A DNA stretch of 64,000 nt from Acidobacteriota bacterium (GTDB lineage Bacteria; Acidobacteriota; Terriglobia; Bryobacterales; Bryobacteraceae), in assembly GCA_026393985.1 (NCBI GenBank), contig JAPKZB010000093.1:58350-122349 (forward strand). The letters run 5' to 3'. The notes beneath the pieces are model-generated. The model searched no databases. It saw only the letters and a list, made by a program, of their open reading frames with translations, and was not told where the DNA came from. Shown here piece after piece: positions 23,552-61,865 of the stretch (positions are counted from its first letter, which is position 1; each line of letters starts with the position of its first letter). Made by a program: the position numbers and the translations under genes.

Positions 23552-24342
23552 CCAAGTTTGTTCGCTTCAGTCTGGACCGGGGCATCGCGCCCACCGCGCC
23601 GGATAGCCATCCCGGGGTTCGCTACGGAATCCTGCAGGGCGAGATGATTCAGGAGACGCCTTCGCTGTTTGAGTACCGTCCGGGTACGACGCACGGGCTG
23701 GACGCGGTGCGGCTGCTGCCGCCGGTTTCGCCCTCGAAGATCGTCTGCGTTGGACGCAACTACGCCGACCACGCCAAGGAGTTGGGCAACGCGGTGCCCA
23801 CCGAGCCGCTGATTTTTCTCAAGCCGCCGAGCTCGCTGATTGCGCACGGCGATAAGATTCTCTATCCGGCGCTATCGAGCCTGGTGAGCTATGAAGCCGA
23901 ACTGGGCGTGATCATCGGGCGGCGCGCCCGTAACGTCCGGAAGCAGGACTGGGCCGATTATGTCTGGGGCTACACGTGCGTCAATGACGTGACGGCGCGG
24001 GACCTGCAGAAGAAAGACGGGCAGTGGACGCGCGGCAAGGGCTTTGATACGTTCTGCCCGGTGGGCCAATGGGCGGTGCCGGGCGATGCGGTGGCGGTGA
24101 GCGGGCTGCGCGTGCAGGGCTACCTGGACGGCAAGCTGGTGCAGGACGCCCCGGTGACGGATATGATTTTCGACCTGGGTGATATACTGGCCTATGTCAG
24201 TCAATTTATGACACTTGAGCCGGGCGATCTGATTGCCACCGGCACTCCCCCTGGTGTGGGCCCAATGCTGCCGGGCTCTTCGGTCCGCGTTGTTATTGAT
24301 GGCGTGGGCGCGCTCGAAAACTCAATTACCACCGAATCCTAA
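23548..24342 (+). CDS. Fumarylacetoacetate hydrolase (FAH) family protein
   Basis: A 264-residue protein of the FAH superfamily. The catalytic domain starts at about residue 60 (KIVCVGRNYADHAKELGN). Metal-binding acidic residues are visible in YEAELGVIIGRR, with YVWGYTCVNDVTARDLQ and GDLIATGTPPGVGP downstream. Family members hydrolyse or decarboxylate acylpyruvates or oxaloacetate-type diketo acids; the substrate here is unknown. The start is a GTG overlapping the stop of the lipoprotein gene. It belongs to the hslVU-transaldolase run. Confidence 0.92.
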   Translation: MTKFVRFSLDRGIAPTAPDSHPGVRYGILQGEMIQETPSLFEYRPGTTHGLDAVRLLPPVSPSKIVCVGRNYADHAKELGNAVPTEPLIFLKPPSSLIAHGDKILYPALSSLVSYEAELGVIIGRRARNVRKQDWADYVWGYTCVNDVTARDLQKKDGQWTRGKGFDTFCPVGQWAVPGDAVAVSGLRVQGYLDGKLVQDAPVTDMIFDLGDILAYVSQFMTLEPGDLIATGTPPGVGPMLPGSSVRVVIDGVGALENSITTES

Positions 24343-24351
24343 GAAATCACC

Positions 24352-24999
24352 ATGAAAATCTTTCTCGATACCGCCAACCTGGATGAAATTAGAAAAGGCG
24401 CCGACTGGGGCATTGTCGATGGCGTCACCACCAATCCTTCGCTGATTGCTAAGGAAGGCCGGCCGATTGAGGAGCAGGTCAAGGCGATCTGCGACATCAT
24501 TGACGGGGATATCTCGGCCGAGGTCGTCGCCGTGGAAGCCGCCGCCATGATTGAAGAGGGTAAGAAGCTGGCCAAGATCCACAAGAACATTGTGGTGAAG
24601 CTGCCGCTGATCCGCGATGGCATCAAGGCGTGCAAGGCGCTGTCGAGCGAGGGCATCCGCACGAACGTGACCCTGTGCTTCTCGGCTCCGCAGGCGCTGT
24701 TGGCCGCCAAGGCGGGTGCCTATCTGGTGAGTCCGTTCGTCGGCCGTCTGGACGACATCGGCCACGTGGGCATGGAACTGATCGAGCAGATTACGGCGAT
24801 TTATTCGAACTACGACTTCAAGACGCAGGTGCTGGCGGCCAGCATCCGGACGCCGATCCACGTGGTGGACGCCGCGCTGGCGGGCGCCGATGTGGCGACG
24901 ATGCCGTTCAAGACGCTGGACATGCTGTTTAACCATCCGCTGACCGACCGGGGTCTTGAGCAGTTTCTGAAAGACCACGCCAAGTCGCTCGCCAAGTAA
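24352..24999 (+). CDS. tal: Transaldolase (short TalC/Fsa type)
   Basis: A 215-residue TIM barrel of the short transaldolase family. Motifs are [36 protein letters not shown], the Schiff-base Lys region [32 protein letters not shown] and [13 protein letters not shown]. Sequence style is closer to Bacillus-type transaldolase than to E. coli fructose-6-phosphate aldolase. It transfers dihydroxyacetone units in the non-oxidative pentose phosphate pathway. It lies 9 bp after the FAH gene in the same unit. Confidence 0.95.
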
Positions 25000-58195: not shown

Positions 58196-58272
58196 CCTTC
58201 TACTTTAAGATCAACTGCGGGGCAGCACATCGAACCGGCGAAAGTTCGCTAGCCTGGTGGGCGGAGTATTCT

Positions 58273-59748
58273 ATGAGCCTTGAGGTGCTGGTCGATCTCG
58301 TTCATCAGGGCACTGCCGCCTCTTGGGAAGAAGCCAACCAACGATGGTTCGAAGGCCTCTTCGGCGCGGGCTCCGGCCGCTACGCGGAGAAGGCCAGGAA
58401 CGATGTGCAGCTTCGCTCGCCGGAGATGAAGGACGACAAGGGCGTCTCCTACGCCGCGATCATTCACAAAGACAATCCGCGCTCCGGACGCTATCGCGGC
58501 ACCAGCTTTGTTGTTTTCCCCTCGAAGGAGGGCCCCTGTCTCGCCGGTCTCGTCGTCGGCACCGACGGGCTATCTCCCGACGAAGCCATCCTGGGCCGGC
58601 CCGGCCATGCGCGGAAGGCCCGGGCCATCGCCGCCTGGCTGAACGCCGAGTATGGCCGCGGCGAGAGAGTCGCCTGGGCCAAGCAGGATCCCACCCGGAC
58701 CGACGAAGAGCTTCCGGGCGACCTCCTGCACGACTGGCAAGAGCATTGGGATGCCCTCAAGCGTTATGGCAAGGAGGTCTATCTGCTCTTCCGTCCCACG
58801 GCAGACCGCGCGGCTACTCATGCCGCCGTGACCAGTTGTGTCGATCTGCTGTTCGCCGAGCGGGGCCACCAACCGTTGGCCAAATACAGAGACCAGGCGA
58901 AGGCGATGGAAGCCGCGTGGTTCGACCACCTAATGCCGGGCGTTGAAGAGAGCACTGTAGCCGGTCTGCTCGGTCGGCGCCGCTTCGTGATTCTGCAGGG
59001 CCCGCCGGGCACCGGCAAGACACGGTTGGCGGTGAATCTGCTGCGCGGGGTTTACAAAGGCCACGGACAGTCGATTCAGTTCCACGCCAACACCACCTAC
59101 GAATCCTTCGTCGGGGGCCTCGCTCCGCAGCACGCGGGCGATACACTGGGCCTGCGTTTCGCACCCGAACCCGGCTTCCTGATGCGAGCCGCGGCAGCCG
59201 CTCTCGAAGATCCATCGCGCCCCTATCTGCTCCACATCGACGAGATTAATCGCGCCGATCTCGGCAAGGTACTGGGCGAAGGCCTCTTCCTGCTCGAAGC
59301 GCATGCCGACGGGCCCCGCGCCATCGAACTTCCCTACGATTTTGGTCCGCCCTTCCGCCGTCGTCTCCACCTGCCGCCTAATCTCCATCTGCTCGGCACC
59401 ATGAACTCGGCGGACCGCAGTATAGCGCTGGTGGATGCCGCAGTCCGCCGCCGCTTCGCGTTTCTGTCGCTGTGGCCGCGCACGAGCGTGGTCAGCGCGA
59501 ACAGCTGCCCTTTGATGGTCGATGCCTTTACGCGCCTGGTGAGTCTGTTTGTGGAGTTCGCCGGCGATGACCCCCTGCCGCTAGTGCCCGGGCACTCGTA
59601 CTTCCTCGAGGCTGACCCGGCGGAAGCCCCCAGGGCACTGCGAACCAACCTCGCGCCATTGCTTGAGGAGTATCTCGCGCAGGGCTACGTCGGCAGTTTT
59701 GCCGAATCCATGCGGGGCTACCTCCAATGGCTGCAAGCAAAGGCGTAA
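58273..59748 (+). CDS. McrB-like AAA+ GTPase/ATPase of a McrBC-type restriction system
   Basis: A 491-residue protein. The C-terminal half is an McrB-like AAA_5 domain: Walker A GPPGTGKT (243-250), Walker B HIDEINRADLGK (from 321) and the family signature GTMNSADRS (375-383) with AAVRRRF. The first 220 residues do not match E. coli McrB's DNA-binding domain by eye; they contain RYRGTSFVVFPSKEGPCLAG and may read a particular DNA modification, which is inference. McrB proteins form rings that translocate to activate McrC cleavage of modified DNA. GGAG lies 6 nt before the ATG. The next gene, the McrC-like nuclease, overlaps it by 22 bp but carries an in-frame stop. Confidence 0.9.
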   Translation: MSLEVLVDLVHQGTAASWEEANQRWFEGLFGAGSGRYAEKARNDVQLRSPEMKDDKGVSYAAIIHKDNPRSGRYRGTSFVVFPSKEGPCLAGLVVGTDGLSPDEAILGRPGHARKARAIAAWLNAEYGRGERVAWAKQDPTRTDEELPGDLLHDWQEHWDALKRYGKEVYLLFRPTADRAATHAAVTSCVDLLFAERGHQPLAKYRDQAKAMEAAWFDHLMPGVEESTVAGLLGRRRFVILQGPPGTGKTRLAVNLLRGVYKGHGQSIQFHANTTYESFVGGLAPQHAGDTLGLRFAPEPGFLMRAAAAALEDPSRPYLLHIDEINRADLGKVLGEGLFLLEAHADGPRAIELPYDFGPPFRRRLHLPPNLHLLGTMNSADRSIALVDAAVRRRFAFLSLWPRTSVVSANSCPLMVDAFTRLVSLFVEFAGDDPLPLVPGHSYFLEADPAEAPRALRTNLAPLLEEYLAQGYVGSFAESMRGYLQWLQAKA

Positions 59749-61199
59749 GGACCGCTCCGCTCCAAGCCCCGCCCCGGGAGCGGAATCCGTGCATTGAACT
59801 CGCCGACCAATCCCCGCGAGATCTGCCGGCCGCGGCGCTGTTCACCGGAACCGACGCACCTACGGCCGCGCGCCTGGCCGAGCAATTTGCCCGGTTGAAC
59901 GAACCACTCCTGCGCCGGTTCGATGTCCAGCTTGCATCGCGCTTCGACGGCAGCCAGGTGCATCTCAGCTTCCAGGCCGGCAATCAGGTCGGGGCGATTC
60001 CGCTGCTGTCGCCAACGACCGCTCGCCCCGACTTCGGCCTGGTCGTCCAACCGCGTTTTCCATGGGCCGGCATCGGTCCGCTGCTGGCCCACATGGGCTG
60101 GCGCGTGGCGCCCTAACCGCTGCGCCTCCCTCTCCTGCGCCGCTCCGAGCGCCGCGTGCCGCCCTGGGTGCTTTCCTCGATGGTGCTCGTTCGCATGAAG
60201 GCGCTCCTGCAGTCGCTGGCGCGGCGGTTTGAAACCGCCACCGAAGACCTGGCGGCGCCGCGCGGCCAAGTCGACTGGACCGCTTACTCCCGCGCCCGCA
60301 TCCCTTTCGGCCGCTTAACCTCCATTCCGTGCACGTTCCCGGAGTTGCGCGACGATCGCCACCTGCTCTCCGCTATCCGCTACACGGTGGAGCGCCACGC
60401 CCGGTCCCTCGCAGGGCAGCGGATGCGGGGAGGGTTTGTCGGCACGTTGATTGCCCTTGCCGAGGATCTGCTGGCCGCACTCCGCGGAGTTTCCGCGGTG
60501 GCCCCGGCTCCCGGGATGCTCCAGACCTGGAGCCGGCGTCCGTTGCTGCCGCTGCCGTTCCGCGAGGGGCTCCAGGCGATCGATTGGACCGTTGAAGACC
60601 GGGGGCTGGCCGGTTTGAGTGAGCTCGAAGGAATACCCTGGGTGCTGCCCATGGACCGCTTTTTCGAAGCCTGGGTGGAGACGCAGTTCGCCGCGCTGGC
60701 GCGCCGAACCGGAGGAAGACTCCGCAGCGGACGCAAGAACGAAACAGTCGCCGCCCTGCACTGGCAACCCGGCTCTCTCGGCTCGCAGCGCACGCTCGTG
60801 CCGGATCTGATCCTCGAATGGCCCGGGCTGACTCTGATCGTCGACGCCAAGTACAAGCGGCACTTCGAAGATCTGCAGGAGAGCCACTGGCGCTACACCG
60901 CCACCACGTTGCAGGAGGCACACCGGCACGATTTATTGCAAATGCTCGCCTATGCCAACCTCGCGAGAGAGAATCGCGTGATCAGCTGTCTTGCCTATCC
61001 CTGCGCCCGCCCGCTCTGGGAGGACCTCTCACGCCGCGGCCGCATCGTGCAGACCGCCGAGATCCCCAGCGCAGCACGCCCTCTCTCGGTCTGGCTCACC
61101 GCCATGCCCATGGTGGAAGAGGCCGCCGAACTCCTTGCCCCGCTCGAAAGCCAGGTCCTCTCCCTGCTGCGGGAACCACACGGCGCCCCCTACAGCTAA
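59727..61199 (+). pseudogene. McrC-like restriction endonuclease interrupted by an in-frame TAA
   Basis: One continuous frame of 490 codons holds an internal TAA at 60114-60116 (codon 130). The N-terminal part ends GPLLAHMGWRVAP. Directly after the TAA the same frame continues PLRLPLLRRSERRVPPWVLS, clearly coding, through to the C-terminus. The PD-(D/E)xK nuclease site is intact: Asp360 in LVPDLILEW and DAKYK at 373-377. No frameshift is needed. Either the gene is a recent nonsense pseudogene, the TAA is a sequencing error, it is read through, or the 347-residue C-terminal part (GTG 60156 or ATG 60180) is made separately. It overlaps the McrB-like gene by 22 bp. Confidence 0.85.
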
Positions 61200-61865
61200 T
61201 CCCCACGCTTGGCCAGCAAACCATACAACATCGGACGCCGGAACGGGACCGTATATTCAAGCGCCGCGCGCGCCATCCGCAACTGCTCTGCCGTTGACTC
61301 CGCCACCAGCAACCCATCGGCCTCCTCGCGGATCACCGCCCCGCGTGGCCCCACCACCATCGCCCCACCCGGACACCTCTGGTCCGCGCTCGCAAACGCG
61401 ACCCTCCCGCGATAGTTGCACGCTCCCCTTTCTCCGCGCACCGAGCCCACAGCAAAGGACGCGCCCCGGCCGTCCCCGGTGCCGGATCCGCCGCAAATGG
61501 AAAGAGAGCAATCTCACAACCCTGCACCGCCAGCAGCCGCGTCGACTCCGCCACCACGGGTGCCCCGCCGCCGTTACAAAACGGCATCTCGAACAGCGGC
61601 ACATGCGCGTCATGCAAAACATCCCCGGCGTTTTCGAGCATCCCGGCCGCCAGGAAGTCTCCCTCCCTCAACGACATCCGCGCCTATGCCGCCACGGCCG
61701 CCCCGTCCATCCGTTCGGCGCACTTCAAGCGCCGCGCAGCGCCTCGGCCAGCCACGCCACAGGATCACCCACCGGGTGATTGGGCATAAACCCGGTAACG
61801 TTCAACTCCAGCAAGAGCACCAGATCCGCTCCCGCCACCGCGGCCGCGCGCAACACTGCTTGCAT
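61196..61865 (-). pseudogene. Carbon-nitrogen hydrolase (nitrilase family), broken in three frames
   Basis: On the minus strand three blocks of one nitrilase-like protein lie in different frames. The N-terminal block (61865 down to a TGA at 61725) includes LVLLLELNVTGFMPNHPVGD. The middle block (about 61665-61440) includes DFLAAGMLENAGDVLHDAHV and TRLLAVQGCEIALFPFAADP. The C-terminal block (about 61440-61196) includes NYRGRVAFASADQRCPGGAM and reaches the natural end at a TAG. The segment that normally carries the catalytic Lys, between HDAHV and LFEMPF, looks deleted, and the Cys region is scrambled. The gene is dead. Confidence 0.72.

Follow-up and report, generated by a model that had tools for sequence, protein, structure and literature searches.

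We found that the mcrC-like gene of an acidobacterial mcrB-mcrC pair is interrupted by a single in-frame TAA, and we conclude that a recent single-base nonsense mutation has probably disabled the nuclease subunit of an McrBC-type system on the chromosome of this organism. The window, by which we mean the whole stretch of 64,000 nucleotides that was analysed, is part of contig C17; the draft genome to which it belongs totals 5.93 Mb, is split into 96 contigs and is 97.9% complete. The features of the locus, in window coordinates, are as follows.

58273..59748, + strand: mcrB-like gene, intact, 491 aa; an uncharacterised N-terminal stretch of about 200 aa, then an AAA+ motor with GPPGTGKT (Walker A) and MNSADRS
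59727..61199, + strand: mcrC-like frame with one internal stop, 490 codons; shares 22 bases with the end of mcrB
59727..60116, + strand: N-terminal fragment, 129 aa; putative scaffold-like part and first helix of the finger domain, at low to moderate model confidence
60114..60116, + strand: in-frame TAA at codon 130, from translation of the mcrC frame; a sense codon in 22/22 readable relatives
60117..61199, + strand: C-terminal fragment; putative rest of the finger domain, and the PD-(D/E)xK nuclease (PF10117)
60156..60158, + strand: first in-frame start after the stop, GTG at codon 144; GTG also in 3/5 close relatives
60180..60182, + strand: in-frame ATG nearest to the stop on its 3' side (codon 152), shared as ATG by 5/5 close relatives
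60804..60851, + strand: catalytic PD...DAK motif, intact (D360, D373-A374-K375), from translation and alignment

A sequence-only reading of this DNA had described an McrC-like nuclease gene that stays in frame on both sides of a single TAA, with no indel and with a complete catalytic motif downstream, next to an intact McrB-like ATPase; each of these points held. Translation of 59727-61199 gave one TAA, at codon 130, ahead of the terminal stop (TAA, codon 491). The 360 aa encoded after the internal stop (60117-61196) matched the Pfam family PF10117 (McrBC) at E 3.8e-11, with 43.0 bits against a cut-off of 23.9, as did 9/9 members of one McrC alignment set. The 129-aa part before the stop matched no Pfam family by itself, and it aligned with the N-terminal region of the McrC of relatives. 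Wherever both tblastn matches reached the gap, exactly one codon lay between the N and C parts. Because a homologous frame of 360 aa continues in phase after the TAA, the arrangement is more than chance. Finally, the frame has D360, D373-A374-K375 and Q405, none of which varies in an McrC alignment of 19 rows that includes the window frame read through its stop.

The assignment of the pair to McrBC is supported by both genes. McrB gave a Pfam match to AAA_5 (E 1.6e-14), its best match in a profile search of the PDB was E. coli McrB (6ut6_A, E 7.2e-46), and E. coli McrB also came out best in a fold search (6hz4_A, E 6.8e-14); against the NCBIfam McrB model it scored 101 bits, under the cut-off of 637. 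MNxxDRS is the consensus form of the McrB-type signature motif. The window carries MNSADRS, and M377, N378, D381, R382 and S383 are invariant across 14 aligned McrB rows. For McrC, residues 149-231 aligned with positions 47-124 of the NCBIfam E. coli-type model (353 positions) at E 1e-5, with 24.9 bits against a cut-off of 338, and a Foldseek search with the predicted structure returned four PDB chains at E < 0.001, all from McrBC entries (6hz4, 7vsr, 6ut6), at low TM-scores. PADLOC matched neither McrC part up to E 0.1. A sequence-profile search of the PDB with McrC gave nothing up to E 1, and our mapping of McrC domains therefore uses the weak NCBIfam match, Foldseek and a low-confidence model. 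Judged by sequence, the gene pair belongs to the McrBC (type IV restriction) family as a lineage-specific member: it encodes a PD-(D/E)xK nuclease of the McrC type, which does not imply that the protein is produced, in a frame that is broken by the TAA at codon 130.

The likenesses to the McrBC systems of E. coli K-12 and Thermococcus gammatolerans are the mcrB-mcrC order, the AAA+ motor with an MNxxDRS-type signature and the PD-(D/E)xK McrC. The window differs from them in McrB residues 1-201, which matched no Pfam family at E 0.01, in the length of the McrC frame (490 codons versus a 353-position E. coli model) and in the in-frame stop. It also shares McrB and McrC homologues with the CoCoNuT branch of McrBC; an excerpt of PMC11090510 associates that clade with long coiled coils and with a motif of the form NxD, and the NxD signature is absent from the window, where the motif reads N-S-A-D. 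The N-terminal part of McrB is possibly an uncharacterised recognition module. As a separate observation, this stretch of about 200 aa (window 58273-58875) is conserved among relatives.

The order mcrB then mcrC was found in all relatives that carry both genes. In the window the pair is flanked by an FAD oxidoreductase gene and an acyltransferase gene, so no defence island is visible beside it. The same FAD-oxidoreductase gene adjoins the pair in the window and in genomes G010, G016, G017 and G009. A further genome, G001, keeps this gene (89% identical), with a DNA alignment to the window that ends at 58204; no mcrB or mcrC match was found in the 12 kb examined, and three ORFs beyond it match Pfam families that, to our knowledge, are not known as defence genes. 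On the 3' side of mcrC, window 61227-61850 did not align to G010, in which about 110 bases separate mcrC from the acyltransferase gene, and three ORFs tried in this segment had no Pfam match.

To place the stop among homologues, we compared codon 130 across relatives. The search set comprised 121 genomes (the organism's own and 120 relatives), among which McrC was found in 23 and McrB-like matches in 39, many of the latter over the motor domain alone. The acidobacterial setting proposed from the sequence was right: the records that carry nine relative loci are acidobacterial metagenome genomes, two of the nine labelled Bryobacteraceae and one Bryobacterales. Codon 130 is a sense codon in all 22 readable relatives (Q in 5, R in 2, T in 9, S in 3, A in 2 and N in 1), and none has the stop; this count leaves out L027, whose row is out of register, and L010 and L033, which end short of codon 130, takes L030 from the multiple alignment, and includes L032 and L034 despite fragmentary or broken genes. 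The TAA thus replaces a sense codon in a variable alignment column. In L002, L003 and L004 the codon is CAA, one base from TAA, and the two closest McrC copies (98% and 91% identical) both have CAA, encoding Q. The same-genus copies in G010 (L002), G016 (L003), G017 (L004) and G009 (L005), with McrC 98, 91, 81 and 79% identical to that of the window, lie in the same operon and, unlike the window, have a sense codon at 130. Homologues that naturally consist of two proteins divided at this point had been named as evidence that would count against a broken gene. We found none: the matched mcrC part is one open frame in 21/21 relatives checked, from 25 distinct relatives in all, the other four being partial (L010) or broken or fragmentary (L052, L053, L054). 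In L052 (genome G027) the frame changes elsewhere, near residue 218, and further stops follow.

We next consider how long the stop may have been in place. With G016 as the outside reference, dN/dS after the stop came to 0.106 in the window and 0.103 in G010, whose copy is intact (0.088 for both without codons 384-423), and the values for mcrB were 0.081 and 0.066, respectively; this comparison is a weak one, as the G016 branch is common to both pairs. Compared directly, the window and G010 gave a dN/dS after the stop of 0.192 (16.3 non-synonymous and 28.7 synonymous differences), or 0.129 without codons 384-423, and of 0.102 for mcrB; before the stop there were 4 synonymous and 0 non-synonymous differences (dN/dS 0). 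Constraint is thus not clearly relaxed after the stop: either selection acted on the gene until very recently or the stop is not real. An old stop with relaxed selection is unsupported: against G016 the window resembles its intact sister, although the direct values after the stop exceed that of mcrB. Within the same gene, window 60876-60995 (mcrC codons 384-423) has 75% DNA identity to G010, between segments of 98% and 100%, and 15 of the 22 changed codons are synonymous. One 100-base bin in this tract holds 26 differences, where the 16-kb aligned block has a mean of 2.9 and a next highest bin of 11; the tract may reflect recombination import or strain mixing in the assembly.

These data suggest how the system may have been lost. 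The stop would postdate the divergence from the closest relative and be too young for decay of the remaining gene. Translation would end at codon 130 and leave a 129-residue stub, the nuclease half would not be produced in useful amount, and McrB, although it may still assemble into rings, would have no partner to stimulate the ring or to cut DNA, so that the system would be off. A second McrC that could act in trans was not found, PF10117 being matched once in the organism's own draft genome. As described in an excerpt of PMC7680126, T. gammatolerans McrC consists of a scaffold (1-98 and 289-298), a finger (99-288) and a nuclease (299-458), and the McrC finger plugs the McrB hexamer and stimulates the McrB GTPase. 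The weak NCBIfam match described above, of residues 149-231 to model positions 47-124, places codon 130 near position 28 of the model; in our predicted structure (mean pLDDT 61.2) this codon falls after helix 116-122 and before helix 146-169, bordering residues 131-145, where confidence is below 50. The break would thus fall inside the finger, ahead of most of it; in solved McrC structures this is the element that inserts into the McrB ring. The nuclease and most of the finger would be missing from the stub, and the start of the finger from a C part that is translated anew; if the cut is indeed inside the finger, neither McrC piece should work. Separately, we asked about a cause for such a loss in an incompatible cytosine-C5 methyltransferase, given the host-killing idea set out for McrBC in part of PMC2614495. 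This explanation is unsupported: PF00145 was matched 0 times in the organism's own genome and 3 times in G010, whose McrBC is intact. Among the literature matches listed, no title or abstract opening concerned this McrC stop or this acidobacterial branch.

The sequence-only reading had left three readings side by side: a very recent loss, a sequencing error, or deliberate use of the stop by readthrough or a separately started nuclease. Very recent loss is the best supported of these: a single base separates the TAA from the CAA of the closest relatives, and the sequence downstream shows no clear relaxation of constraint. An artefact of sequencing, assembly or binning, in which codon 130 is sense in the population but the assembled consensus took up an erroneous base or one from a minor strain, seems unlikely to us, although it keeps some weight from the draft state of the assembly (96 contigs, one genome for the species), from the single-base nature of the difference and from the divergent tract at codons 384-423 within mcrC itself. 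The stop does not lie within a long homopolymer, however, and against G010 only 2 of 27 filtered reference ORFs contained stops: mcrC and a 992-aa ORF, whose stop falls inside a wrong-frame extension across the gene at 63114-65063. Against G016, where mcrC was not among the filtered ORFs, stops were present in 3 of 36: the 992-aa ORF again, an ORF whose stop lies opposite another retained ORF, and a 172-aa ORF (window 24195-24710) with two stops. A looser first scan also flagged three stop-bearing ORFs that overlap or extend past other genes. On inspection, these scans gave no sign of widespread in-frame stops, save for the two-stop 172-aa ORF; the result counts against a contig full of errors, though it does not prove the base at 60114-60116 itself. 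Turning to a two-piece nuclease, with the C part restarted at 60156 or 60180 and working with the stub or alone, we consider this very improbable. Starts are available in frame (GTG 60156, GTG 60168, ATG 60180, GTG 60183 and ATG 60195), the GTG 40 bases and the ATG 64 bases past the stop; the would-be product of 347 aa is close in length to the E. coli McrC model (353), and E. coli McrC lacks the N-terminal part of the scaffold (PMC7680126, from an excerpt). Yet the ATG is found in 5/5 and the GTG in 3/5 of the intact close relatives, none of the 21 relatives checked is split at codon 130, and about 40 positions at the start of the E. coli McrC model would have no counterpart in the product. 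The finger boundary is drawn from a weak match and a low-confidence model (mean pLDDT 61). By eye, no Shine-Dalgarno sequence was evident at the internal starts or at the normal mcrC start (59727); since the normal start also lacks one, its absence at the internal starts counts for little.

Functional readthrough of the TAA, programmed or basal, yielding some full-length McrC, would be more improbable still. In its favour, the base after the stop is C, rather than the U of strongest termination, and a tRNA-Gln(UUG) is present that would insert the residue of the nearest relatives; according to an excerpt of PMC5289835, a U in the +4 position strengthens termination in bacteria, and tRNA-Gln(UUG) misreads UAA in yeast (cited there). 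The same excerpt gives UAA as the least leaky stop, however, and mcrB itself terminates with TAA. The stop is conserved in none of the 22 readable relatives, and a TTA or CTA anticodon was absent from the 43 tRNA matches in the organism's own genome, each with an anticodon called, an incomplete set from which Ile-GAT and Ala-TGC, for instance, are missing. Additional to the 43 is a tRNA-SeC gene of this genome (L080, positions 797-891, - strand) with the sole TCA anticodon, which suggests selenocysteine use. Basal readthrough is probably slight in extent, and little speaks positively for deliberate use of the stop that would not hold for any stop of this kind. The least probable account that we entertain is that the stop works as a dimmer: tRNA-Gln(UUG) would misread UAA at a basal rate, giving a little full-length McrC while a self-damaging nuclease is kept low, the allele being maybe one side of a reversible polymorphism. 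A small amount of McrC could suffice in such a case, because the E. coli complex needs only two McrC per twelve McrB (PMC6344862, from an excerpt).

A recent nonsense mutation in mcrC, the reading that we prefer, would not be an isolated event. Broken or fragmentary mcrB or mcrC genes were present in 7 of the 22 other McrC-bearing genomes, or 8 of 23 with the window. The count enters G044 (McrC match from residue 61) as intact, which is uncertain, and excludes L008, L009 and L010, the last of which also has mcrB in two frames. The broken pairs are as follows.

Window: stop in mcrC
G025 (L045): mcrB in two frames; mcrC open
G026: TAG in mcrB
G027 (L052): mcrB split over frames and mcrC broken
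G031: mcrB almost gone; McrC from residue 73
G046 (L050): mcrB in several frames; mcrC open
G038: mcrC fragment, no mcrB match
G020: mcrC fragment, no mcrB match; near a contig end

Sequencing errors may account for some of these breaks. McrBC is described as frequently lost and transferred (Fukuda et al., PMC2614495, from an excerpt). Taken singly, the window adds one more apparently inactivated restriction system. Taken as a set, the relatives form a small natural record of restriction-system loss: close species have an McrBC pair at the same chromosomal site, and in several others of the family one gene or the other is broken.
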